A DNA stretch of 55,354 bases from positions 1 to 55,354 of the forward strand of contig JAOUMR010000011.1 of NCBI GenBank assembly GCA_029881435.1, in the 5' to 3' direction. Made by a program: the position numbers and the translations under genes. Each line of letters opens with the position of its first letter. The first letter of the stretch is position 1. Below are positions 10,816-21,632 of this stretch, one piece after another. The DNA is from Nitrospira sp. GTDB lineage: Bacteria; Nitrospirota; Nitrospiria; Nitrospirales; Nitrospiraceae. The notes under the pieces were generated by a model. The model was not told where the DNA came from. It saw only the letters and a program-made list of their open reading frames with translations, and did no database searches.

Positions 10816-11703
10816 ATGACCTTCATGTCAGGAGATCCGAAAACTGTCGGCGCTCTGCTTGCCTGGGCGCGACAGTTGCTGGATAACACCGGAACAACGA
10901 ATGTTGCCCAAGAGGCCTTGTGGCTGTTGGCCTCCGCGCTCGAGATGGAGCATCATGCGCTCGTGAGCCGAGCGGAGCAGCCAGTGACTACTGATCAGCT
11001 GGCACGTGCAAAAACATTCGTATCCAGGCGGATAGCACGAGAACCGTTACAGTATATTCTGGGGACGCAAGAATTTTGCGGGCTCGACTTTGCCGTGACC
11101 TCCTCGGTGTTAATTCCCAGACCAGAGACAGAGTTGTTAGTCCATGCGGTGCTCAAGGAGGGTGGCCTTGCAGAAGGTGCGACGCTGGTCGATGTGGGAA
11201 CCGGATCGGGATGTATGGCTGTGACGTTTGCGACCATCCTCGAGGGAATTCGAATTGTGGCGGTCGATTGCTCAGTCGAAGCGTTAGCGGTCGCAAAGAG
11301 CAACGCTGTAAGACACGGCGTGGGAGAAAAGATTGTGTGGAGTGAGGGAAATCTGTTGTCGCCATTGCGAGACCGTATCACGCTCGGAACAGTCGATGTC
11401 ATTGTGTCGAATCCTCCGTACATCACTGAGGAAGAATGGGAAAAACTCCAACCAGAAGTGCGAAATTTTGAGCCACGACTAGCTTTGATTGCTGGACCGC
11501 GAGGGACTGAGTTTCATGAACGATTGTTCCATGACGCGAAAGAGTTTCTTGCTCCTGACGGATTACTGGTGATGGAAATCGGTCTAGGACAGCTTCCGCT
11601 CGTGCAACACGCGGCAGAACAGGCCGGAGGCTACACGCGACTTCAAACTATCAAAGACGAAGCTGGCATCGACCGCGTCATAATCGCTCGGCGGGCAGGT
11701 TAG
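10816..11703 (+). CDS. prmC: Release factor glutamine methyltransferase
   Basis: PrmC methylates the GGQ glutamine of release factors using S-adenosylmethionine. The 295-residue protein has an N-terminal helical domain, the LIPRPETELLV segment at about 99-109, the SAM-binding VGTGSG at 127-132 and the substrate-binding NPPY at 199-202, all in the expected order. It starts six bases after prfA, its usual partner; a second ATG at 10825 is also possible. Only ten bases separate it from murA, so the three are probably cotranscribed. Confidence 0.94.
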   Translation: MTFMSGDPKTVGALLAWARQLLDNTGTTNVAQEALWLLASALEMEHHALVSRAEQPVTTDQLARAKTFVSRRIAREPLQYILGTQEFCGLDFAVTSSVLIPRPETELLVHAVLKEGGLAEGATLVDVGTGSGCMAVTFATILEGIRIVAVDCSVEALAVAKSNAVRHGVGEKIVWSEGNLLSPLRDRITLGTVDVIVSNPPYITEEEWEKLQPEVRNFEPRLALIAGPRGTEFHERLFHDAKEFLAPDGLLVMEIGLGQLPLVQHAAEQAGGYTRLQTIKDEAGIDRVIIARRAG

Positions 11704-11713
11704 GTATTCAGAA

Positions 11714-12979
11714 ATGGATGAGATCCTTATCAGGGGCGGCAAGCGGCTGTCTGGAGAAGTGCGGATTAGCGGTGCCAAGAATTCTGCGCTTCCACTCCTG
11801 GCTTCGACCATTCTGGGCGGTGGGGAATGTATCATCACGAATGTTCCGAGGGTCGTTGATGTTTTGACGATGGGAAAACTCCTGGGGATTCTAGGGGCCA
11901 AGGTATCGCATGAGGGCAATCGTGCGGTCATCCACGCTGAGGTGATCGAATCAACAGAGGCTCCGTACGATCTCGTCAAGACCATGCGTGCATCTGTGCT
12001 TGTGTTGGGACCATTGCTTGCGCGTTGGGGTGAAGCTAAAGTTTCTCTTCCTGGCGGTTGTGCGATTGGATCCCGACCGGTCAATCTTCATCTGGCCGGA
12101 TTGGCCAAATTGGGGGCCGACATCTCCATTGACCATGGCTATATCACCGCCAAAGCGAAACGGTTACGAGGTGGACGCATTTATTGCGATACGCCGACGG
12201 TGACTGGCACGGAAAATCTTATGATGGCGGCGTCACTTGCCGAGGGTATGACCGTGCTGGAAAATTCGGCCAAAGAGCCGGAGATCGTGGACTTGGCCGA
12301 TTTCCTCATCAAGCGTGGGGCCAATATTCACGGAGCAGGAACCGATGTGATCACAATAGAGGGGGTGCAAGAACTCCATGGAGGAGATCACGAAGTAATC
12401 CCGGATCGTATCGAGGCCGGCACCTATCTGGCTGCGGCTGCCATCACTCGAGGTGATGTGACGGCGACCCACTGCCGCCCTGGCCATCTTGAAGCGGTGC
12501 TGATGAAATTACGTGAAGCGGGTGCGGAAATACGGGAAGAGAAGGACACAGTGCGTTTGACAATGCCTGGCAATCTACGAGGAACTGACGTGAAAACCTT
12601 GCCGTTCCCTGGATTCCCCACGGATATGCAGGCCCAAATGGCTGCGGTGATGAGCCTCGCCGAAGGCACGAGCGTCGTCACCGAAACCGTCTTTGAGAGC
12701 CGGTTTATGCACGTGGAAGAATTACGACGGATGGGAGCCAATATCCGTGTGGAAGGCAATCGGCTGGTAGTGACCGGATGTAAGACCCTCACTGGAGCTC
12801 CTGTCATGGCCTCTGATCTGCGTGCAAGCGCAGGTTTGATCGTCGCTGGATTGGCGGAAGAGGGGACGACCCAGGTTCAGCGGGTCTATCATCTTGATCG
12901 AGGATACGAGCGGATCGAAGAAAAGCTCAGAGCGTTAGGGGCTAACGTTCAGCGCCGACAGGCTGCGGCTACTCATTAG
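11714..12979 (+). CDS. murA: UDP-N-acetylglucosamine 1-carboxyvinyltransferase
   Basis: MurA transfers enolpyruvate from phosphoenolpyruvate to UDP-GlcNAc, the first committed step of peptidoglycan synthesis, in the cytosol. The 421-residue protein shows the N-terminal [14 protein letters not shown] with the conserved Lys-Asn pair and the loop [10 protein letters not shown] with the catalytic Cys at 116. Cys rather than Asp implies sensitivity to fosfomycin in principle. [11 protein letters not shown] and [16 protein letters not shown] mark the C-terminal lobe. It is placed between prmC and hisG, with nine bases to the latter. Confidence 0.96.
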
Positions 12980-12988
12980 GAGCAAGCT

Positions 12989-13684
12989 ATGTTGACGATC
13001 GCGCTATCCAAAGGAAAACTCATCGACGCGGCGCTCAAACTCTTCCACCGAGCCGGCTATACAATTACTGGATTGTTGGGGGATAGCCGACGGCTGATTT
13101 TTGTCAGCCGCGAGATCGATATGACCTTCCTCATCGTCCGCCCCAGCGATGTCCCGACGTATGTGGAATATGGTGGGGCAGACGCCGGAATTGTTGGGAA
13201 AGACGTCTTGATGGAACAGGAAAGTGACGTATACGAACCATTGGATTTAGAGTTCGGAGCGTGTAGAATCTCCGTCGCCGCGCTCCAGGGAGAGGGGTCG
13301 AATGACCGGCTGTCCTCGAAGGTGCGGATCGCGACAAAATACCCTCGGATCACGGAGCGCTACTTTAACAAGCGCGGGCTTCCGGTCGAGATCATCAAAC
13401 TGTATGGGTCGATCGAGTTGGCGCCGGTGGTGGGACTCGCTGATCGGATTGTAGACTTGGTCGAAACCGGCAGCACGCTCAACGCTCATGATCTGGTCGA
13501 AGTGGAAGTGATTGCCAAGTCGTCTGCGCGGTTCATCGTCAATCGGGCGAGCTTTCGACTGAAACAAGAGCCGCTGATGGCATTGATTCGAAAGCTTCGA
13601 TCTGCGGTACGGAGCCAGGCGCTTGAATCCGGGAATGGCCATGCATCGAATGTAACGAGTCGGAAGAAAAGAGTCGTTCGCTGA
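12989..13684 (+). CDS. hisG: ATP phosphoribosyltransferase, short form
   Basis: HisG joins ATP and PRPP in the first step of histidine synthesis. At 231 residues this is the short form: it has the catalytic lobes (LTIALSKGKL, YGGADAGIVGKDVL, and the PRPP-loop VETGSTLNAHDL) but no C-terminal regulatory ACT-like domain. Short HisG normally needs the HisZ partner for activity and feedback control. No hisZ is found in this window. AGGAG precedes the ATG. Its stop overlaps the hisD start (TGATG). A Lys/Arg-rich tail of about 20 residues (SRKKRVVR at the end) extends past the domain. Confidence 0.95.
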   Translation: MLTIALSKGKLIDAALKLFHRAGYTITGLLGDSRRLIFVSREIDMTFLIVRPSDVPTYVEYGGADAGIVGKDVLMEQESDVYEPLDLEFGACRISVAALQGEGSNDRLSSKVRIATKYPRITERYFNKRGLPVEIIKLYGSIELAPVVGLADRIVDLVETGSTLNAHDLVEVEVIAKSSARFIVNRASFRLKQEPLMALIRKLRSAVRSQALESGNGHASNVTSRKKRVVR

Positions 13685-14967
13685 TGAAAATTATCACACA
13701 AGCAGATCGCAGTTTTCTTCCATCCTTGAAGAAAGCCGCGCTCCGAGGTCGCACGACCGGGGCTGCGGTGGAAAAAACCGTGCGGACGATTCTGCAGGCC
13801 GTCGAACGGGGCGGTGACAAGGCCGTCCTGCGCTACACTAAGCAGTTCGACAAAATTACACTGAAAGCAGAAGCCCTGCGCGTCACGTCAGATGAGATCA
13901 AGAATGCCTACTTTCATATCAGGAAAGACGAGGGTGATGCACTCCGCCTGGCTGCTCGGCGGATTACGTCCTTTCATGAGCGGCAGCGGACCAAGACCTG
14001 GATGTATCAAGATGGGGATGCCACGTTAGGGCAGCTCGTCGGACCAGTCGACGCGGTTGGGGTGTATGTGCCTGGGGGGAAAGCTGTCTACCCGTCATCC
14101 GTGCTGATGTGTGCCATTCCAGCTAAAGTTGCTGGTGTCTCGCGAATTGTGATGGCCACGCCACCTCAGAAGGATGGGATCAACCCCTATTTGCTGGTTG
14201 CCGCCGACATTGCCGGGGTCACCGAAATTTATCGTATCGGTGGGGTTCAAGCGGTGGCGGCACTCGCCTATGGAACGAAAACCATCGACCGAGTTGACAA
14301 GATCGTCGGACCGGGGAATATCTATGTCGCCACGGCCAAACGCTTGCTGTTCGGCACGGTTGGGGTCGACATGGTCGCTGGTCCCAGTGAATTGCTGGTG
14401 GTAGCGGACGACGACGCGAAGCCGGCCCATGTGGCAGCGGATCTGCTCTGCGAAGCCGAACATGACGAAGACGCGCAAGTGTTTCTCGTGACAACATCTG
14501 AACGGTTGGCAAAGGATGTCTCCAAGCTGATTGAGAGTCAGCTGAAGGGGCTCCAAAGAGAAAAAATCGCTTCGAAGTCGATCGCGCGTCATGCCGTGGC
14601 CTTCGTCGTCCCCACCTTGGACGAAGCCATCGTGGTGGCCAACGAAATCGCGGCGGAGCATGTGACCCTCTCGGTGGATAATCCCTTTGATTATTTGGAG
14701 AAGATTCGCCACGCAGGAGCCCTATTCTTGGGACGGTACACACCACCGTCGGTCGCCGACTATATTGCAGGACCGAATCACGTCTTGCCGACGGGAGGAA
14801 CTGCCCGGTTCTTTTCCCCGCTGTCCGTCAACGATTATGTGAAAGTCAGTAACATCCTGCACTATACGAAACAAGAATTGGCCAAAGTGAAAGATCCTCT
14901 CATCCGCCTTGCACAGATCGAAGGCTTTGATGCCCATGCTAAATCGGCCCAGAGCAGGTTTTCATGA
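13684..14967 (+). CDS. hisD: Histidinol dehydrogenase
   Basis: HisD carries out the last two steps, oxidising L-histidinol to histidine with NAD and zinc. The 427-residue protein shows the expected [35 protein letters not shown], the signature [11 protein letters not shown], and the zinc/catalytic region [12 protein letters not shown] with AAEHVTL nearer the C-terminus. The start codon overlaps the hisG stop by one base, and its own stop overlaps the hisB start (ATGA). This is tight coupling in the operon. Confidence 0.96.
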
Positions 14968-15572
14968 AGAAGAATGGGTTGGCTCCACGTCAAGCGAATA
15001 TCCACCGCGCTACGAAAGAAACGGATATTCGCGTCGAGTGGGTCTTGGACGGTCGCGGGCAAGGGAAGATCGATACCGGGATCCGTTTCTTCGATCATAT
15101 GCTGGAGCTTCTGGCGAAGCATGGGTTTTTTGACCTGACCGTGCAGGCAAAGGGTGATCTCGACATCGATGAACACCACACAGTAGAGGATGTCGGCATC
15201 GTCATGGGGAAGGTGCTGCATCAGGCGCTGGGTGAAAAGGCCGGTATCAAGCGATTTGGATTTGCCTCGGCACCGCTCGATGAAACATTGGCCCAGGTGA
15301 CTGTGGATCTCAGCGGTCGACCGTTCTTGGTCTACAACGTGAATTTGCCGGACCGGAAGATCAAAGCGTTCGATCTTGGCTTGTTCGAGGATTTTTTCCA
15401 GGCCTTTGTCACGCACGGAGGCCTGAATCTGCATGTGAATCTGCTCTATGGCCGAAATCCTCACCACATCATGGAAGCGATCTTCAAGGCGCTCGCCAAG
15501 GCGCTGGATCAAGCGACGAGGGGGGAAGAACGGCTGGCGGGGAAAGTACTCTCGACAAAGGGGAGCCTATAG
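14964..15572 (+). CDS. hisB: Imidazoleglycerol-phosphate dehydratase
   Basis: The 202-residue enzyme is monofunctional; no histidinol-phosphate phosphatase domain is fused. It dehydrates imidazole glycerol phosphate in histidine synthesis. The manganese-binding His motifs are visible as [24 protein letters not shown], and [14 protein letters not shown] toward the C-terminus. It overlaps hisD by four bases. A phosphatase for histidinol phosphate must be encoded elsewhere. The terminator-like hairpin after it may reduce but need not stop expression of the next his genes. Confidence 0.96.
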
Positions 15573-15606
15573 ACAAGCTGAATCGGCAGTGTCGATTGCT
15601 TGAAGG

Positions 15607-15637
15607 GGGGGTAGGCTGTCGTGGCTGCCCCCTTTTT
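15607..15637 (+). terminator. Weak terminator-like hairpin between hisB and hisH
   Basis: GGGGGTAG (15607-15614) pairs with CTGCCCCC (15625-15632), with one G-T pair and a ten-base loop, and five T follow. It splits the his genes into two blocks and could give partial termination. Confidence 0.55.
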
Positions 15638-15709
15638 GTTTCGCGAATTGGGAGTGGTGAGGTCAGTCCAGTTACGGTATGGTTACGATTCCTTTAGGCC
15701 CCGACAACC

Positions 15710-16318
15710 ATGATAGCCATCATCGATTACGGAATGGGGAATTTGCGCAGTGTCTCCAAGGCCTTTGAGGCCGTAGGCCATCAAGCCGTGGTAACGCGCG
15801 ATAAGGGGACGATTCAGAATGCCAGCCATGTGGTGCTGCCGGGGGTGGGTGCGTTTGGGGATTGCATGGCGAATTTGGAGCAGTATGGACTGATCGAGCC
15901 GATTAAGGCCGCGATTCAGTCAGGAAAGCCATTTTTGGGAATTTGCCTCGGATTTCAGCTGTTGTTTACGGAGAGCGAGGAGTTCGGCAGGCATGAAGGG
16001 CTCAATATTTTTCCAGGGAACGTTCGAGCCTTTTCGAAGGATTGTACCCTGAAGGTTCCACATATGGGCTGGAATCAGGTTCATGTCCAACGGTCTTGTC
16101 CGCTTTTCGAAGAGATCGCCGATGGGGTGGATTGGTACTTCGTCCACTCTTTTTTCGTAGACCCACAGGATAAGCAGATCACCGCCACGACGACGACCTA
16201 CGGGAGGCCCTTTACCTCAAGCATTTGGAAGGACAATGTGGTGGCTTGTCAGTTCCATCCGGAGAAGAGTCAGGCGGTTGGGTTGCGATTGATGAAGAAT
16301 TTTGGAGCATGGAAGTGA
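15710..16318 (+). CDS. hisH: Imidazole glycerol phosphate synthase, glutaminase subunit
   Basis: HisH is a class I glutamine amidotransferase that supplies ammonia to HisF. The 202-residue protein has IIDYGMGNLRSV at the start, the nucleophile elbow LGICLGFQLL with Cys 79, and the HPE triad end at His 183 and Glu 185. The start has only a weak ribosome-binding site. Its 3' end overlaps the possible starts of the lipoprotein gene, and hisF follows after hisA, so the two halves of the synthase are not adjacent. Confidence 0.95.
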   Translation: MIAIIDYGMGNLRSVSKAFEAVGHQAVVTRDKGTIQNASHVVLPGVGAFGDCMANLEQYGLIEPIKAAIQSGKPFLGICLGFQLLFTESEEFGRHEGLNIFPGNVRAFSKDCTLKVPHMGWNQVHVQRSCPLFEEIADGVDWYFVHSFFVDPQDKQITATTTTYGRPFTSSIWKDNVVACQFHPEKSQAVGLRLMKNFGAWK

Positions 16319-16320
16319 AG

Positions 16321-17055
16321 ATGCCAGGGAGGCAGTTCCGCACAATCCTGGTGATCAGTGCGCTCGTGACCGCAAGTATTGCGGCAGGTTGCAGCGGTGC
16401 AAAAGTGGCGACAAAGTCGGCTCCTGAGCTGTCTCGATATCAGATTCGTTCCATTGCCCTTCTGCCGTTTACGTCGATTGCGACGCCTCAAGCCCGGGAT
16501 CATCAGGATATCTTTGTCCCGGCGCCTCAGGGTGTTCGTCAGTCAGACATTTCTCTGGCCATCCCCTCTGATGCCCAGCCTCAGCCAAAGAAGACGATGA
16601 CGGTACCGGGATATGCAGCGGAGAAGGTGACCGAACTGTTTTGGGGGCGTCTCCAGGATTGGAAAGGCGTTCGTGTCTTGTCTCCTGGTGAATCGGCGCA
16701 AGTCTCATTGGGAAATGGTGAGTCGGCGGAGGGGAGGCCAGAGAACGCCGCAGCCGACACTGCCAAGCGACTCAAGGTGGATGCCGTGTTGTTGGGTCTC
16801 GTATCGGCATACCAGGAGCGTGTGGGCAGTCGACTGGGGGCGAGTCCTCCGGCAACAGTTGGGTTCGAGGCCAAGGTGGTGGCGGCGGATGGGCAAGTAC
16901 TTTGGGTTGGGAGATACTATGAACGGCAACGGCCCATGACCGAAGACCTTATCGGATTCTTGCAACGATGGGCATTTGTGACGGCTGGAGAGCTGGCGGA
17001 ATACGGTGTTGATGAAGTATTGAAAGAGTTCCCGTTTGGGAGGGGAGGAGAGTAG
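16321..17055 (+). CDS. Predicted lipoprotein inside the his operon
   Basis: The 244-residue product has a type II signal peptide: MPGRQFRTILVISALV, then a lipobox IAAGC with the lipid-carrying Cys at residue 22. The mature part starts with a KSAPELSRYQIRSIALLPF segment and ends in a domain with ADTAKRLKVDAVLLGLV and KVVAADGQVLWVGRYYE. This strand-helix pattern resembles periplasmic CsgG/GNA1162-type lipoproteins, but I do not claim membership. The start at 16321 is preceded by GGAAG; an ATG at 16309 inside hisH is also in frame. It is wedged between hisH and hisA with no room for separate control. No histidine-related role can be read. Confidence 0.8.
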   Translation: MPGRQFRTILVISALVTASIAAGCSGAKVATKSAPELSRYQIRSIALLPFTSIATPQARDHQDIFVPAPQGVRQSDISLAIPSDAQPQPKKTMTVPGYAAEKVTELFWGRLQDWKGVRVLSPGESAQVSLGNGESAEGRPENAAADTAKRLKVDAVLLGLVSAYQERVGSRLGASPPATVGFEAKVVAADGQVLWVGRYYERQRPMTEDLIGFLQRWAFVTAGELAEYGVDEVLKEFPFGRGGE

Positions 17056-17059
17056 TAAG

Positions 17060-17809
17060 GTGTTGGTCATTCCTGCCATTGATTTGAAGGATGGGCGCTG
17101 TGTCAGGCTACGCCAAGGCGATATGGCGGCCGAAACCATCTATGCTGACGATGTGACAGAGGTCGCACGCAAATGGGAACGGAGTGGAGCCCGTCTGATT
17201 CACGTGGTGGATTTGAACGGAGCCGTCGATGGCGAGCCCAAGAATTTGCGCCACATCCAGTCCATCGTGGGATCGGTCAGCGCCTCCATCCAGGTTGGTG
17301 GCGGCATCAGGACTCTGGATACGGTCCGGCAGTATCTGAACGCCGGTATTGCGCGCGTGGTGCTCGGCACCGCAGCACTTACGAATCGGACGTTTCTCGA
17401 AGAAGCCTGTAGGGAATTTCCTCACCGGGTCCTCCTTGGGCTTGATGCCAAGGATGGCCGAGTCGCGCTCCAGGGCTGGACAACGGTGTCCGAGGTCAAA
17501 GCGATCGATCTTTTAAAAGAGCTGTCGGACTGTTCCATCGGGGCGGTGATCTACACTGATATCGCACGAGACGGGATGCTCAACGGGCCAAATCTGTCCG
17601 CCCTACAAGAAATCGTCGAATGTTCGCCCTTTCCGGTGATTGCTTCGGGAGGTATTACCAGCTTGGAGGATCTGCGAGCGGTGCAATCCCTCGGTGCCCA
17701 GATCGAAGGAGCAATTGTTGGGAAAGCGTTGTACGATGGGAAGTTAGACTATCAGACTGCAATGGCTGCCCTAAGCTCGCACACTTCCCCCGGTCGCCAT
17801 GCTGACTAA
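17060..17809 (+). CDS. hisA: Phosphoribosylformimino-5-aminoimidazole carboxamide ribotide isomerase
   Basis: HisA is a TIM-barrel isomerase that opens the ribose ring of ProFAR. The protein reads (M)[16 protein letters not shown] with the first catalytic Asp at residue 8, and the second catalytic Asp in LLGLDAKDG near 130; phosphate-binding GGGIR and [11 protein letters not shown] are present. I chose the GTG at 17060, with GGGAGGAG upstream and start at the conserved N-terminus (249 residues). The upstream ATG at 17036 lies within the lipoprotein gene and adds non-family sequence. It overlaps hisF by 11 bases. Confidence 0.95.
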
Positions 17810-18578
17810 ACGCATCATTCCGTGCCTGGACGTCAAAGAAGGTCGCGTGGTCAAGGGTGTGAGCTTTGTCAACCTTCGCGACGCCGGGGATCCGGTTGAA
17901 GCCGCGGTGGGGTACGATCGTGAAGGAGCGGATGAGCTGTGCTTTCTCGATATCACGGCCTCACATGAAAATCGGAAGACGATTATTGACGTGGTTGAGC
18001 GGACGGCGGCCCGGGTCTTTATGCCGGTGACAGTCGGCGGCGGCGTGGGGACGCTCGACGATATCCGAGCCTTGTTGAATGCCGGAGCCGATAAAGTGAG
18101 CATCAATACTGCCGCTGTCAGACGACCTGAGTTTGTCAAAGAGGCCGCCCAACGATTCGGTACACAATGCATTGTTGTGGCCATCGATGCCAAGCGCTCA
18201 GCGGCCGGCCGCTGGGAGGTCTTCACGCATGGTGGCCGCACGGCAACCGGAATCGACGTTGTCGAATGGGCTATACGGATGGAGCAGTACGGTGCCGGGG
18301 AGATTTTACTGACTAGTATGGACCAGGATGGCCGACAGACGGGGTACGACTTGGATCTGACCGCTACAGTGTCAGCAACCCTGTCGATTCCGGTGATTGC
18401 GTCGGGCGGAGTCGGGACGCTGGAGCATCTGTATGATGGATTTGTGAAGGGGAAAGCCGATGCGGTCTTGGCCGCGTCCATTTTCCATTTTCGGACCTAT
18501 TCGATCTCCCAAGCAAAGTCGTACTTGCGGGACCGTGGTGTCCCAGTACGAGTGGATGCGCTTTCTGGGGTCGCGTGA
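17799..18578 (+). CDS. hisF: Imidazole glycerol phosphate synthase, cyclase subunit
   Basis: HisF takes ammonia from HisH and closes the imidazole ring, also releasing AICAR for purine synthesis. The 259-residue TIM barrel has the catalytic Asp 11 ([15 protein letters not shown]) and Asp 130 (VVAIDAKR), with the phosphate motifs GGGVGTLDD and [10 protein letters not shown]. It starts inside the end of hisA, and hisIE follows one base after its stop. The cluster thus reads hisA-hisF-hisIE as in many bacteria. Confidence 0.97.
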
Positions 18579-18579
18579 C

Positions 18580-19251
18580 ATGGTGAACCTGGCCACCACA
18601 GACCAGCTCCAATTCGATGGACAAGGTCTTCTCCCGGCGGTCATTCAGGACTGGCTCGATGGGACGGTGTTGATGCTCGGGTATATGAACCAAGAGGCAC
18701 TGGCCAAGACCGTTACCACAAAGAAAGTCCATTTTTGGAGTCGGTCTCGGAATAAACTGTGGGAAAAGGGCGAAACATCTGGTCATACGCTTCAGGTCAA
18801 GGAACTATTCATTGACTGTGACGCCGATACCATTCTTGTGAAGGCGCAACCAGTCGGACCGACTTGCCACACAGGCGAACGAGCCTGTTTCTTTTTCAGG
18901 CTGGATGAACAGGGCCAACTCGTCCATGGAGGTTCGCAGGACGCTCAAGGTGGAATTCTTGAAAGCGTCCTCCGTACGATTCAGGATCGCCGTTCTAACC
19001 CCCAGGCCAGTTCCTATACCTCGAAATTGTTCGAAGGGGGGCATGACAAAATTCTGAAGAAAGTGGCAGAAGAAGCCGGAGAGGTCTTGTTGGCGTCGAA
19101 GGGGGGCAAGAAAGAGGAGATCATCTACGAAGTGGCCGATCTATTTTTTCATACACTCATGGTTCTGGGGTATCACGATCTCTCCTTGCAGGACATTTAT
19201 GGAGAGCTGGGACGGCGATTTGGAAAATCAGGGTTGCGGATGGAAAAGTAG
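18580..19251 (+). CDS. hisI: Bifunctional phosphoribosyl-AMP cyclohydrolase / phosphoribosyl-ATP pyrophosphatase
   Basis: The 223-residue protein fuses two histidine-pathway enzymes. Residues about 1-115 are the cyclohydrolase HisI, with VLMLGYMNQEAL, HFWSRSRNKLWEKGETSGH and the zinc region DCDADTILVKA plus TCHTGERACFF. Residues about 125-223 are the pyrophosphatase HisE, with SYTSKLFEGGHDKILKKVAEEAGE and YEVADLFFHTLMVL. I set the start at the ATG at 18580, one base after hisF; the longer frame from 18460 would overlap hisF by 119 bases. It is the last his gene in the run. Confidence 0.96.
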   Translation: MVNLATTDQLQFDGQGLLPAVIQDWLDGTVLMLGYMNQEALAKTVTTKKVHFWSRSRNKLWEKGETSGHTLQVKELFIDCDADTILVKAQPVGPTCHTGERACFFFRLDEQGQLVHGGSQDAQGGILESVLRTIQDRRSNPQASSYTSKLFEGGHDKILKKVAEEAGEVLLASKGGKKEEIIYEVADLFFHTLMVLGYHDLSLQDIYGELGRRFGKSGLRMEK

Positions 19252-19343
19252 CACACCGCCCCTTCTTCGATGAGCACCGACCACCGATCGGGGATTCAAT
19301 CGGTACACCGTAAGGGGATTCAAACCCGGTTCATGAGGCCAAC

Positions 19344-19688
19344 ATGAGTGATTGTCTTTTCTGTAGGATCGTGGAGAAAAAGATTCCGGCGAGGCTTGTT
19401 CAAGAGGATGAGCACACGGTCGCCTTTGACGACATCAATCCTCAAGCTCCCGTCCATACGCTGGTGATCCCCAAACGGCATGTCACAGCCGTTCAAGACT
19501 TGGGGCCGGAAGATGAGATGTTACTCGCGCGATTGCTGATGAGCTGTACGAAGGTGGCAGCCCTGAAAGGCTTACAGAGCTCCGGCTATCGTGTCGTGAC
19601 GAATACCGGGAGAGATGCAGGGCAAACCGTCCTCCATCTGCACTTTCACGTACTGGGAGGACGGCACATGAGTTGGCCTCCCGGTTGA
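19344..19688 (+). CDS. HIT family (histidine triad) nucleotide-binding protein
   Basis: The 114-residue protein has CLFCRIVEKKIPA at the start, LVIPKRHV in the middle and the triad HLHFHVLGG with His 98, 100 and 102. This is the HINT branch, whose members hydrolyse nucleoside phosphoramidates. The zinc-type Cys pair CxxC at 4-7 and His 46 are seen as in many bacterial HinT proteins. It lies 92 bases after hisIE, a common location in bacteria. An AGG a few bases upstream of the ATG is a weak ribosome-binding site. Confidence 0.93.
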   Translation: MSDCLFCRIVEKKIPARLVQEDEHTVAFDDINPQAPVHTLVIPKRHVTAVQDLGPEDEMLLARLLMSCTKVAALKGLQSSGYRVVTNTGRDAGQTVLHLHFHVLGGRHMSWPPG

Positions 19689-19701
19689 GGGAATTCCGCA
19701 A

Positions 19702-19731
19702 TTGACAGATTTTTAGTCTGTCTGTTAACCT
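19702..19731 (+). promoter_or_regulatory. Putative promoter for dnaG-rpoD
   Basis: A perfect TTGACA (19702-19707) is followed after 18 bases by TAACCT with an extended TGT before it. The -35 is convincing and the -10 is poor. It sits about 80 bases upstream of dnaG. Confidence 0.4.
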
Positions 19732-19808
19732 GAACGGTCAACTCTTCTGACAACTTAGCACCGACTCGGCTGGTTATACGAGTTGAGACTCCAGGAGCTG
19801 AGACTCTC

Positions 19809-21632
19809 GTGGGGCAAGGTTTGATTTCCGATGACACGATCGAACGTATCAAGGGCCGGGTGGACATTACCGACATCGTGAGTCACCACGTCTCTTTGAG
19901 CAAGGCAGGGCAGAATCTCAAAGGGCTGTGTCCCTTTCATCACGAAAAGACCCCGTCCTTTACGGTGAGTCCGTCTAAACAGATCTTCCACTGTTTCGGG
20001 TGTGGCGCCGGTGGCAACGTGTTTACCTTCCTTTCACGCCTGACCGGCGCAAGCTTTCCGGAAGTGGTGCGCGATCTCGGACGAACAGTCGGGATTGAGG
20101 TAGAGGAGAGAGCAGCGACTTCCGGTCATCAGGCCGTGATGGCACAGACAGTTGAGCGGGTTAATCAGGCGGCAGCCGCTTGGTTTCAGCGGAACTTGAA
20201 GGATGAGCGAGCCGGCTCCGAGGCCCGTGAGTATTTAGCACATCGAGGGGTCGAATCGCGCATGGTCGACCAGTTCGGTGTCGGAGTGGCGCCTGCCGAA
20301 TGGGATGGTCTCTTACGGGCGTTGACCGGCAAGGGATTTTCACAAGGTGATCTAGCGGCAGCCGGTTTGGTGATTGCCCGAACAAACCAGTCGGGATTCT
20401 ATGACCGGTTCCGCGCCCGTGTGATGTTCACGATTACGGATGTGCGGAAACGTGTGGTGGGGTTCGGTGGTCGCGCGTTTGGCGATGGGACGCCCAAGTA
20501 TCTCAACTCGTCCGACACGGTGCTCTTTAAGAAAGGGCAGACGCTGTTTGCGCTCGATCAGGCGAGGGAAGCGATTGCACGAACGAGAACGGTCATCGTG
20601 GTCGAGGGCTATTTCGATGCGATTGCACTTCATCAAGCGGGGCTGACGCATACGGTCGCGACGTTGGGGACGGCCTTGACGTCTGACCATGTGCAGGTGT
20701 TGCGGAGATTTGCGTCAAAGGTCGTGTTGCTGTTCGACCCCGATGCCGCCGGGGTGCGAGCCGCGCTGAGAGGATTAGATTTGTTTGTGAACAGTGGGCT
20801 TGGGGTCAAAGTTGCAACACTGCCGGCGGGAGAAGACCCCGACACGTATGTTCGGAAGGAAGGCCCTGACGCCTTGCTTCGCCTGGAGGAACAGGCCCCA
20901 AGTTTGTTGGACTTCGCGCTGGAAGAGAGTCTCAAGTCGACGGAGGCGAGTACGATCGAAGGGCGGATCCGCAGCGTGGATGAACTTCTGCGTATTTTAC
21001 AGAAGAGTGAACATCCGATTGAGCGCGAAGAGCGTCTCAAAGTCGTGGCTGAGCGGCTGGGAATCAATCAATCGTCTTTGATCGAACGGTATCCTGTTCT
21101 CACTCGACAGCAACAGCCTGGTTCGGGACCGTTACGTCAAGCAGTCACCGCTACTCCAATGGAAACGCTGTTTAAGGGGGCACCTGAAGAACGAGACCTT
21201 ATCATTCTTCTGCTGCGCGGCAAGCTTTCGGCAGCCGATGTGCGACGTCTGCGGCCGGAGCAATTTTCAATTGAAAGCTGCCGCAAGCTCGTCGAAGTGG
21301 CGCTGACCTCCGTGGATCGCGATGGTCGCGTTCAAGTTCAGCCTGTGCTGGATCAGTCAGTGGATGATCTGGATTGCGGTGTTCTGGTGACGGAATTAGC
21401 ACTACGCGACGATCATTTCGATGACGAATCGGAGCACGCGAAGGACTGCCTGGATCGTCTGGACCGCAAGCGATCAGACCAGGCGATGAAGGAGATTATT
21501 ACGAAATTGAAAACGGCTGAGCGGGAAGGTCGCGCGGATGAAGTGGAGTTGCTCAACATGCAGATCAATGAAATACGGATACGGAAAGCCGGCACGCCAA
21601 CCGGCGGTATGGTTTCACTGGTGAAGGAGTAG
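19809..21632 (+). CDS. dnaG: DNA primase
   Basis: DnaG makes RNA primers at the replication fork. The 607-residue protein has the CHC2-type zinc finger (Cys 41, His 44, Cys 62, Cys 65, with [10 protein letters not shown]), the catalytic core with the motif [20 protein letters not shown], a Toprim domain with [17 protein letters not shown] and [13 protein letters not shown], and a helical C-terminal region for helicase contact. The start is GTG. It lies two bases before rpoD, the conserved macromolecular synthesis pair; rpsU is not in this cluster. Confidence 0.96.

Follow-up and report, generated by a model that had tools for sequence, protein, structure and literature searches.

A predicted PelC-fold lipoprotein gene conserved between hisH and hisA in Nitrospirales and related Nitrospirota

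INTRODUCTION

LpoB activates a class A penicillin-binding protein, and the genes for LpoB, CsgG, TolB, and FlgT usually occur in contexts that differ from a histidine (his) operon setting. Another lipoprotein, PelC, assembles as a ring of twelve subunits on the outer-membrane barrel PelB, and passages of the corresponding report name Asp-119 in a D-loop and the membrane-embedded Trp-149 among its features (PMC12141448). The his cluster of Corynebacterium glutamicum includes genes without an apparent histidine role, one of which encodes a putative permease; cg2302-cg2301 lie between hisB and hisH, and two transcription units are reported there (PMC3896937). Passages of PMC10138114 provide a general discussion of “alien” genes in operons. 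In wild-type Salmonella, overexpression of HisH alone causes filamentation at acidic pH, and in the passages on this effect the authors take it to be independent of HisHF activity (PMC12345169).

Here we describe a predicted lipoprotein gene that lies between hisH and hisA in Nitrospira sp. (GenBank assembly GCA_029881435.1). The DNA analyzed, hereafter called the window, is a 55,354-nucleotide stretch of contig JAOUMR010000011.1. No description of this gene was found among titles and abstract openings, or in passages of PMC10138114, PMC1963479, PMC3896937, and PMC13001215.

RESULTS

A predicted lipoprotein gene is packed between hisH and hisA

A first-pass annotation of the window, made from the letters alone, had placed a lipoprotein gene between hisH and hisA, and its open reading frame (ORF), strand, and coordinates proved to be right (Table 1). 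The tight packing within the his operon was also described correctly. The end of hisH lies 2 nt before the lipoprotein ATG, and a gap of 4 nt separates the lipoprotein stop codon from a possible GTG start of hisA at position 17060. Upstream, hisB was recognized by its match to Pfam family PF00475. The lipoprotein start is ambiguous, with ATG 16309, GTG 16315, and ATG 16321 as candidates. The first of these overlaps hisH by 10 nt and agrees with the MEVK start at two other loci (L002 and L003), and GTG 16315 overlaps the hisH stop codon.

Table 1. Features of the his region in the window
Feature	Position	Strand	Details and basis
Terminator-like hairpin then T-run, between hisB and hisH	15603..15636	+	RNA fold
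Promoter-like motif GTTRCGGTATKGTTAC, conserved, just 5' of hisH	15671..15686	+	Putative promoter role
hisH, glutaminase subunit of imidazole glycerol phosphate synthase	15710..16318	+	PF00117, E = 2.4e-23
PelC-like lipoprotein gene	16321..17055	+	244 aa; stop codon 17053-17055; ORF list and translation
Predicted signal peptide	16321..16392	+	Ends in lipobox ASIAAGC; read from sequence
Low-confidence loop, about residues 54-92	16480..16596	+	Shorter or absent in distant members
Conserved core, residues 155-229	16783..17007	+	Alignment A4, 65 sequences
hisA	17060..17809	+	PF00977, E = 2.5e-80
hisF	17799..18578	+	PF00977, E = 5.2e-86
hisIE (approximate start)	18589..19251	+	ORF list, sequence, gene order, conserved neighbor in relatives
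HIT-family gene, last in the stable unit at most loci	19344..19688	+	Named from sequence

The lipobox cysteine, Cys24, is encoded at positions 16390-16392 and is followed by Ser at position +2. This cysteine is kept in all 65 members of alignment A4, which comprises the window and 64 of 80 organism-named loci (the 16 left out include L092, with a masked start, and L104, at a contig end; most of the others are apparently redundant). In alignment A2, all 35 members have S, G, A, or V at position +2. By the E. coli +2 rule, Ser at this position predicts the outer membrane. The window protein is a predicted lipoprotein, with putative lipidation read from these residues.

The window's genome carries one copy of the gene, and the proteins of relatives titled Nitrospira are up to 84% identical. 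The window protein matched no Pfam family at E ≤ 1 and no NCBIfam family at E ≤ 10. Among 17 genus loci, the median dN/dS of the lipoprotein gene is 0.145 (126 usable of 136 pairs), compared to 0.053 for hisH (103 usable pairs), 0.092 for hisA (94), and 0.043 for hisF (132). The lipoprotein ORF is a real gene under purifying selection.

The hisH-lipoprotein-hisA order is conserved across the order and beyond

Within the genus, the lipoprotein gene is present in 76 of 79 genomes, and in 49/49 of those with completeness of 90% or more and contamination of 5% or less. No hisA was detected at E ≤ 1e-20 in the three genomes without the gene (G020, G048, and G061; 54, 83, and 86% complete). Profile A2 was also searched against 395 genomes of the phylum, with at least 80% completeness requested. 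In the order to which the window belongs, 147 of 152 genomes match at E ≤ 1.5e-45 by hand count. The profile match is absent or weak (7e-5, 6e-4) in the other five (G337, G421, G369, G425, and G380), which also have no hisA at E ≤ 1e-50, so the contig carrying the his genes is probably missing there. None of the 152 genomes was found to have hisA without the lipoprotein gene, and genomes of about 1.7-2.0 Mb (G030, G223, G227, and G353) retain it.

Gene order was mapped in 85 distinct genomes, 84 of which have hisH-lipoprotein-hisA (74/75, plus 10/10 further genomes). The set of 75 corresponds to 76 loci, with G253 entered twice, and the 10 further genomes correspond to 20 loci, some of them the same place twice. 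The same order is found in 78 of 80 organism-named loci, including those of N. moscoviensis and Ca. N. defluvii, and in 30/30 further loci beyond these 80; the named-locus sets overlap the 85-genome set and are not independent of it. The exceptions are L104, where the contig ends, and the RSF1 metagenome-assembled genome (MAG), which lacks hisH. The scan of named genomes listed 80 of 126 relatives, and among the matches listed, all titles are Nitrospira, Nitrospirae, Nitrospirota, or alike, except for one Nitrosospira (L167).

Thus, the hisH-lipoprotein-hisA position is conserved far beyond chance, across the order and beyond, and the gene is no stray insertion. The first-pass annotation had suggested surveying the his operons of Nitrospirota for the same arrangement, and had regarded absence from this position in close relatives as the mark of a chance insertion. 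The survey recovered the arrangement in the close relatives and well beyond them. Retention of the gene, together with its dN/dS value, indicates that the lipoprotein matters to the cell.

Two loci show local departures. In RSF1 (L144 5930-5960, also entered as L016), hisB is followed by the lipoprotein gene with no hisH between them, and none was found elsewhere in the MAG, which may reflect a real loss or an assembly fault. At L086 5667-6545, a 292-aa ORF with a below-cutoff match to the restriction-endonuclease-fold family Tox-REase-9 is located between the lipoprotein gene and hisA; this locus is still counted as hisH-lipoprotein-hisA.

The lipoprotein gene is a fixed member of a separable his unit

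The hisH-lipoprotein gap has a median of 2 nt (n = 78) and is at most 40 nt in 75/78 cases, and the lipoprotein-hisA gap has a median of 1 nt (n = 80; at most 40 nt in 78/80). The median for hisB-hisH is 198 nt (n = 62; at most 40 nt in 6/62). Gap ends were set by script, and some extreme values are artefacts. When junctions were scored as neighbors within 600 nt in the named loci, hisH-lipoprotein was kept in 78/79, lipoprotein-hisA in 80/80, hisA-hisF in 76/76, hisF-hisIE in 73/74, and hisIE-HIT in 72/72. The hisB and hisH genes are within 600 nt of each other in 37/70 named loci and at least 600 nt apart in 33/70. Because hisH-lipoprotein-hisA-hisF-hisIE holds where hisB-hisH comes apart, the lipoprotein gene is a fixed member of this unit.

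A second stable half of the cluster, murA-hisG-hisD-hisB, keeps its successive junctions in 52/52, 58/58, and 61/61 cases. HIT-dnaG is kept in 61/69 named loci and in 10/27 of a wider set (29 long loci). The idea that the entire murA-rpoD stretch is frozen was dropped in light of the counts for hisB-hisH and HIT-dnaG. At one locus of the genus (L087 7898-9675), hisB and hisH are separated by a nucleotidyltransferase/HepT-like pair and a DUF4238 gene.

RNA folding of positions 15573-15712 gave a z value of -2.2 for the entire stretch, and several of 34 intergenic sequences show a similar GC-rich hairpin and T-run downstream of hisB. With up to two mismatches, GTTRCGGTATKGTTAC is present in 89 of 123 regions upstream of hisH (repeats of the same genomes included), mostly 19-31 nt before the gene. 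The 34 regions where it is missing are mostly from distant lineages, and the close L018 and L148 are also among them. Exact matches were found in 13 of 29 genomes, one in each. A single exact occurrence is expected of any specific 16-nt string and does not speak for a his-specific regulator.

Consensus scans of positions 11400-19900 returned 2 promoter sites (4.3 in shuffled sequences) and 7 terminators (7.7 in shuffles), and the hairpin at 15603..15636 was missed. The boundary of the unit therefore rests on conservation and folding. Rfam gave no match at E ≤ 1 in positions 11000-20000 of the window, and a known RNA regulator at the locus was set aside for this reason.

The hairpin, the GTTRCGGTATKGTTAC motif, and the frequent hisB-hisH break suggest that the his cluster is arranged in two units in Nitrospira. 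One of them would be a separate hisH-lipoprotein-hisA-hisF-hisIE(-HIT) transcription unit, although the consensus scans do not support it. The first-pass annotation had argued that a conserved position would point to a functional or regulatory link. Expression of the lipoprotein gene in common with hisH and hisA is likely. The functional link to histidine synthesis does not follow, because the HIT gene, which encodes no histidine enzyme, is equally stable within the unit; fixed order is therefore weak evidence for a pathway role. Since the lipoprotein gene shares the stability of the entire unit, its conserved position alone is no pointer to such a link.

The protein has a predicted PelC fold without signs of a Pel system

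Single-chain AlphaFold models gave a mean pLDDT of 83 and a pTM of 0.75 for the window protein, and 85 and 0.78 for a distant member that is 32% identical (L088). PelC was the best structural match for both models (Z 14.1 over 134 residues at 2.7 Å for the window protein; Z 15.2 over 137 residues at 2.5 Å for the distant member). The PelC structures 5t10, 5t0z, and 9h80 matched the window model with Z scores of 14.1, 14.1, and 13.3 over 134, 139, and 148 residues. Foldseek likewise returned PelC for this model (E = 4e-7), and PelC 9h80 ranked first in a PDB profile search with a weak E value of 0.012. Other structural matches to the window model were FlgT (Z 10.9), TolB (9.5), GNA1162 (9.0), CsgG (8.8), and LpoB (7.8), with TraT falling between Z 10.9 and 7.8. 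On these models, the window protein is predicted to have a PelC fold. The earlier proposal of a CsgG/GNA1162-like mature domain, for which structure prediction and fold comparison had been suggested, was correct as to fold class, and both proteins appear in the match lists, but PelC is clearly the closest solved structure.

Sequence profiles of the related families reach only some members: PF05643 (GNA1162-like) matches 7/35 at E ≤ 1 (best 4e-4), PF13036 (LpoB) matches 5/35 at E ≤ 1 (best 0.003), and PF03783 (CsgG) matches 1/35 (E 0.033), with no match of the window protein to any of the three families. Residues 61-90 of the window model have a mean pLDDT of 49-64, and the region of the 54-92 loop is gapped in the alignment for L060-L067 and L079. 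Most invariant residues lie within 159-225; the invariant set is G159, V161, R167, G169, G173, A178, G181, F182, L194, W195, G197, Y199, E201, Q203, E208, D209, and L225.

PelG (PF16933), the sole Pel marker searched, was found in 0/76 genus genomes; the control search matched 1/14 named genomes. The equivalent of PelC Asp-119, placed at residue 171 by a hand count on the weak profile alignment (E 0.012), is R in 49, P in 8, A in 4, and K in 4 of the 65 sequences of A4, and is R, K, P, S, A, or N in 35/35 members of A2. For Trp-149, the profile alignment ends at PelC residue 142, and an ungapped extension would lead to residue 204 (R in 58 and K in 7 of 65). Because PelG was not found in the genus genomes and Asp-119 is not conserved, the protein is PelC-like rather than PelC, and the fold occurs without signs of a Pel system.

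Lineages that lack the gene and its possible origin

We identified 23 loci from twelve other Nitrospirota families in which hisH and hisA are present and the lipoprotein gene is absent; another 28 of the 51 lipoprotein-less hisA loci were left out because the fetched stretch contained no hisH. The hisH-hisA gap is -4 to 20 nt in 20 of the 23 loci and 92, 184, and 490 nt in the remaining three. The 490-nt gap (L199 1903-2357) holds a DUF2283 gene and another small ORF; since this lineage lacks the lipoprotein, the site has here received a separate, independent insertion.

A quick tree was built from HisH, HisA, and HisF of 60 loci, 39 with and 21 without the lipoprotein gene. On this tree, the presence label needs four changes, which counts against a single gain. 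However, a single clade of all lipoprotein-bearing loci is not rejected (log-likelihood difference 1.3, AU p 0.48). A single gain followed by vertical inheritance is the simplest reading of these sequences but is not proven, and several gains, losses, or transfer of the operon are also compatible with the quick tree.

A search of 72,556 plasmid records gave no match to the lipoprotein, and on this weak evidence mobility of the gene was set aside. Weak paralogues in other Nitrospirota lineages (L078, L068, L077, and L069) are approximately 190-215 aa long and lie among long ORFs, several of which have signal-peptide-like starts (seen as ORFs only).

DISCUSSION

We propose that the gene product is a secreted lipoprotein with a PelC fold that most likely sits on the periplasmic side of the outer membrane, anchored in the inner leaflet. 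Judging from PelC, the protein would probably act as an oligomer that forms a ring or collar on a partner in the outer membrane. An ancestor of Nitrospirales and related Nitrospirota lineages may have acquired the gene at the hisH-hisA junction, and its descendants would have inherited it as the second gene of the hisH-lipoprotein-hisA-hisF-hisIE(-HIT) unit, translated just behind hisH. The cell would need the protein, and the gene, lacking a separate promoter, would lose its expression on leaving the unit, which would account for its retention. This reading does not require the lipoprotein to have a role in histidine synthesis. An envelope lipoprotein that depends on the unit for its expression is the most economical and most likely interpretation, and we give the explanation as a whole a probability of about 0.55.

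The location directly behind hisH, retained when hisB-hisH comes apart, would also suit a tie to HisH or to peptidoglycan synthesis, in which an LpoB-like protein offsets or transmits a HisH-dependent block of division. Excess HisH alone blocks division of Salmonella at acidic pH, according to passages of PMC12345169, and LpoB belongs to the same fold class by both its Z score and its profile matches in 5/35 members. However, PelC, FlgT, TolB, and GNA1162 all outscore LpoB, murA belongs to the other, separable half of the cluster, and RSF1 retains the lipoprotein gene without a detectable hisH. The passages of PMC12345169 on localization also report no enrichment of HisH at division septa, and a division role for Nitrospira HisH would be hypothetical. 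We consider such a tie unlikely. The protein could also be an envelope arm linking histidine synthesis to cell-wall growth. In that case it would be produced at a constant ratio to HisH and, from the outer membrane, would modulate a septal or peptidoglycan machine to buffer or transmit the division block. This proposal seems to us quite unlikely.

That no genome among the 152 of the order was found with hisA but without the lipoprotein gene is what might be expected of a direct pathway accessory, for example one that in the periplasm would bind histidine, a metal, or a pathway intermediate and report or import it. Yet the best fold matches are lipoproteins with structural or assembly roles, lineages with adjacent hisH and hisA manage without the gene, and the alignments contain no histidine-rich or catalytic signature, leaving this role improbable. 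If the protein were a genuine PelC working with an exporter of the Pel exopolysaccharide, this would explain why PelC is the best fold match by a clear margin and the best PDB profile match. This reading is mostly refuted by the lack of PelG matches in the 76 genus genomes, the other residues found at the Asp-119 position in every member of A4 and A2, and the his genes as neighbors, and we judge it very improbable. A chance insertion or an annotation artefact without conservation is ruled out by the genome survey and the dN/dS values and has a negligible probability.

An envelope lipoprotein held in the his unit for its expression would be of interest for several reasons. The family marks an order that includes nitrifying Nitrospira, and its member in the window has no Pfam or NCBIfam name. 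The locus also lends itself, as a clean natural example, to the question of why one of the best-studied operons should keep a gene without an evident place in the pathway. Moreover, it provides a concrete envelope protein with which to probe why HisH affects cell division.

Among known lipoproteins, PelC is the nearest in structure, and the window protein resembles it (PDB 5t10, 5t0z, and 9h80) in its predicted single-domain lipoprotein fold and, by sequence, in its lipobox cysteine. It differs in that its gene lies outside a pel cluster, among his genes, and in a loop that adds about 40 residues to the Nitrospirales members. The likeness to GNA1162-like proteins (PF05643, PDB 4hrv) is one of fold class, whereas the window protein has no PF05643 match and is 16-17% identical over the structural match. 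LpoB, CsgG, the TolB N-terminal domain, and FlgT have the fold in common with it and score below PelC. With regard to gene context, the passages of PMC3896937 on C. glutamicum describe non-pathway genes within a his cluster, as in Nitrospira, but these encode other types of proteins and the site there is hisB-hisH. The Nitrospira arrangement, by comparison, consists of one lipoprotein gene at the hisH-hisA junction and extends through an entire order and further.
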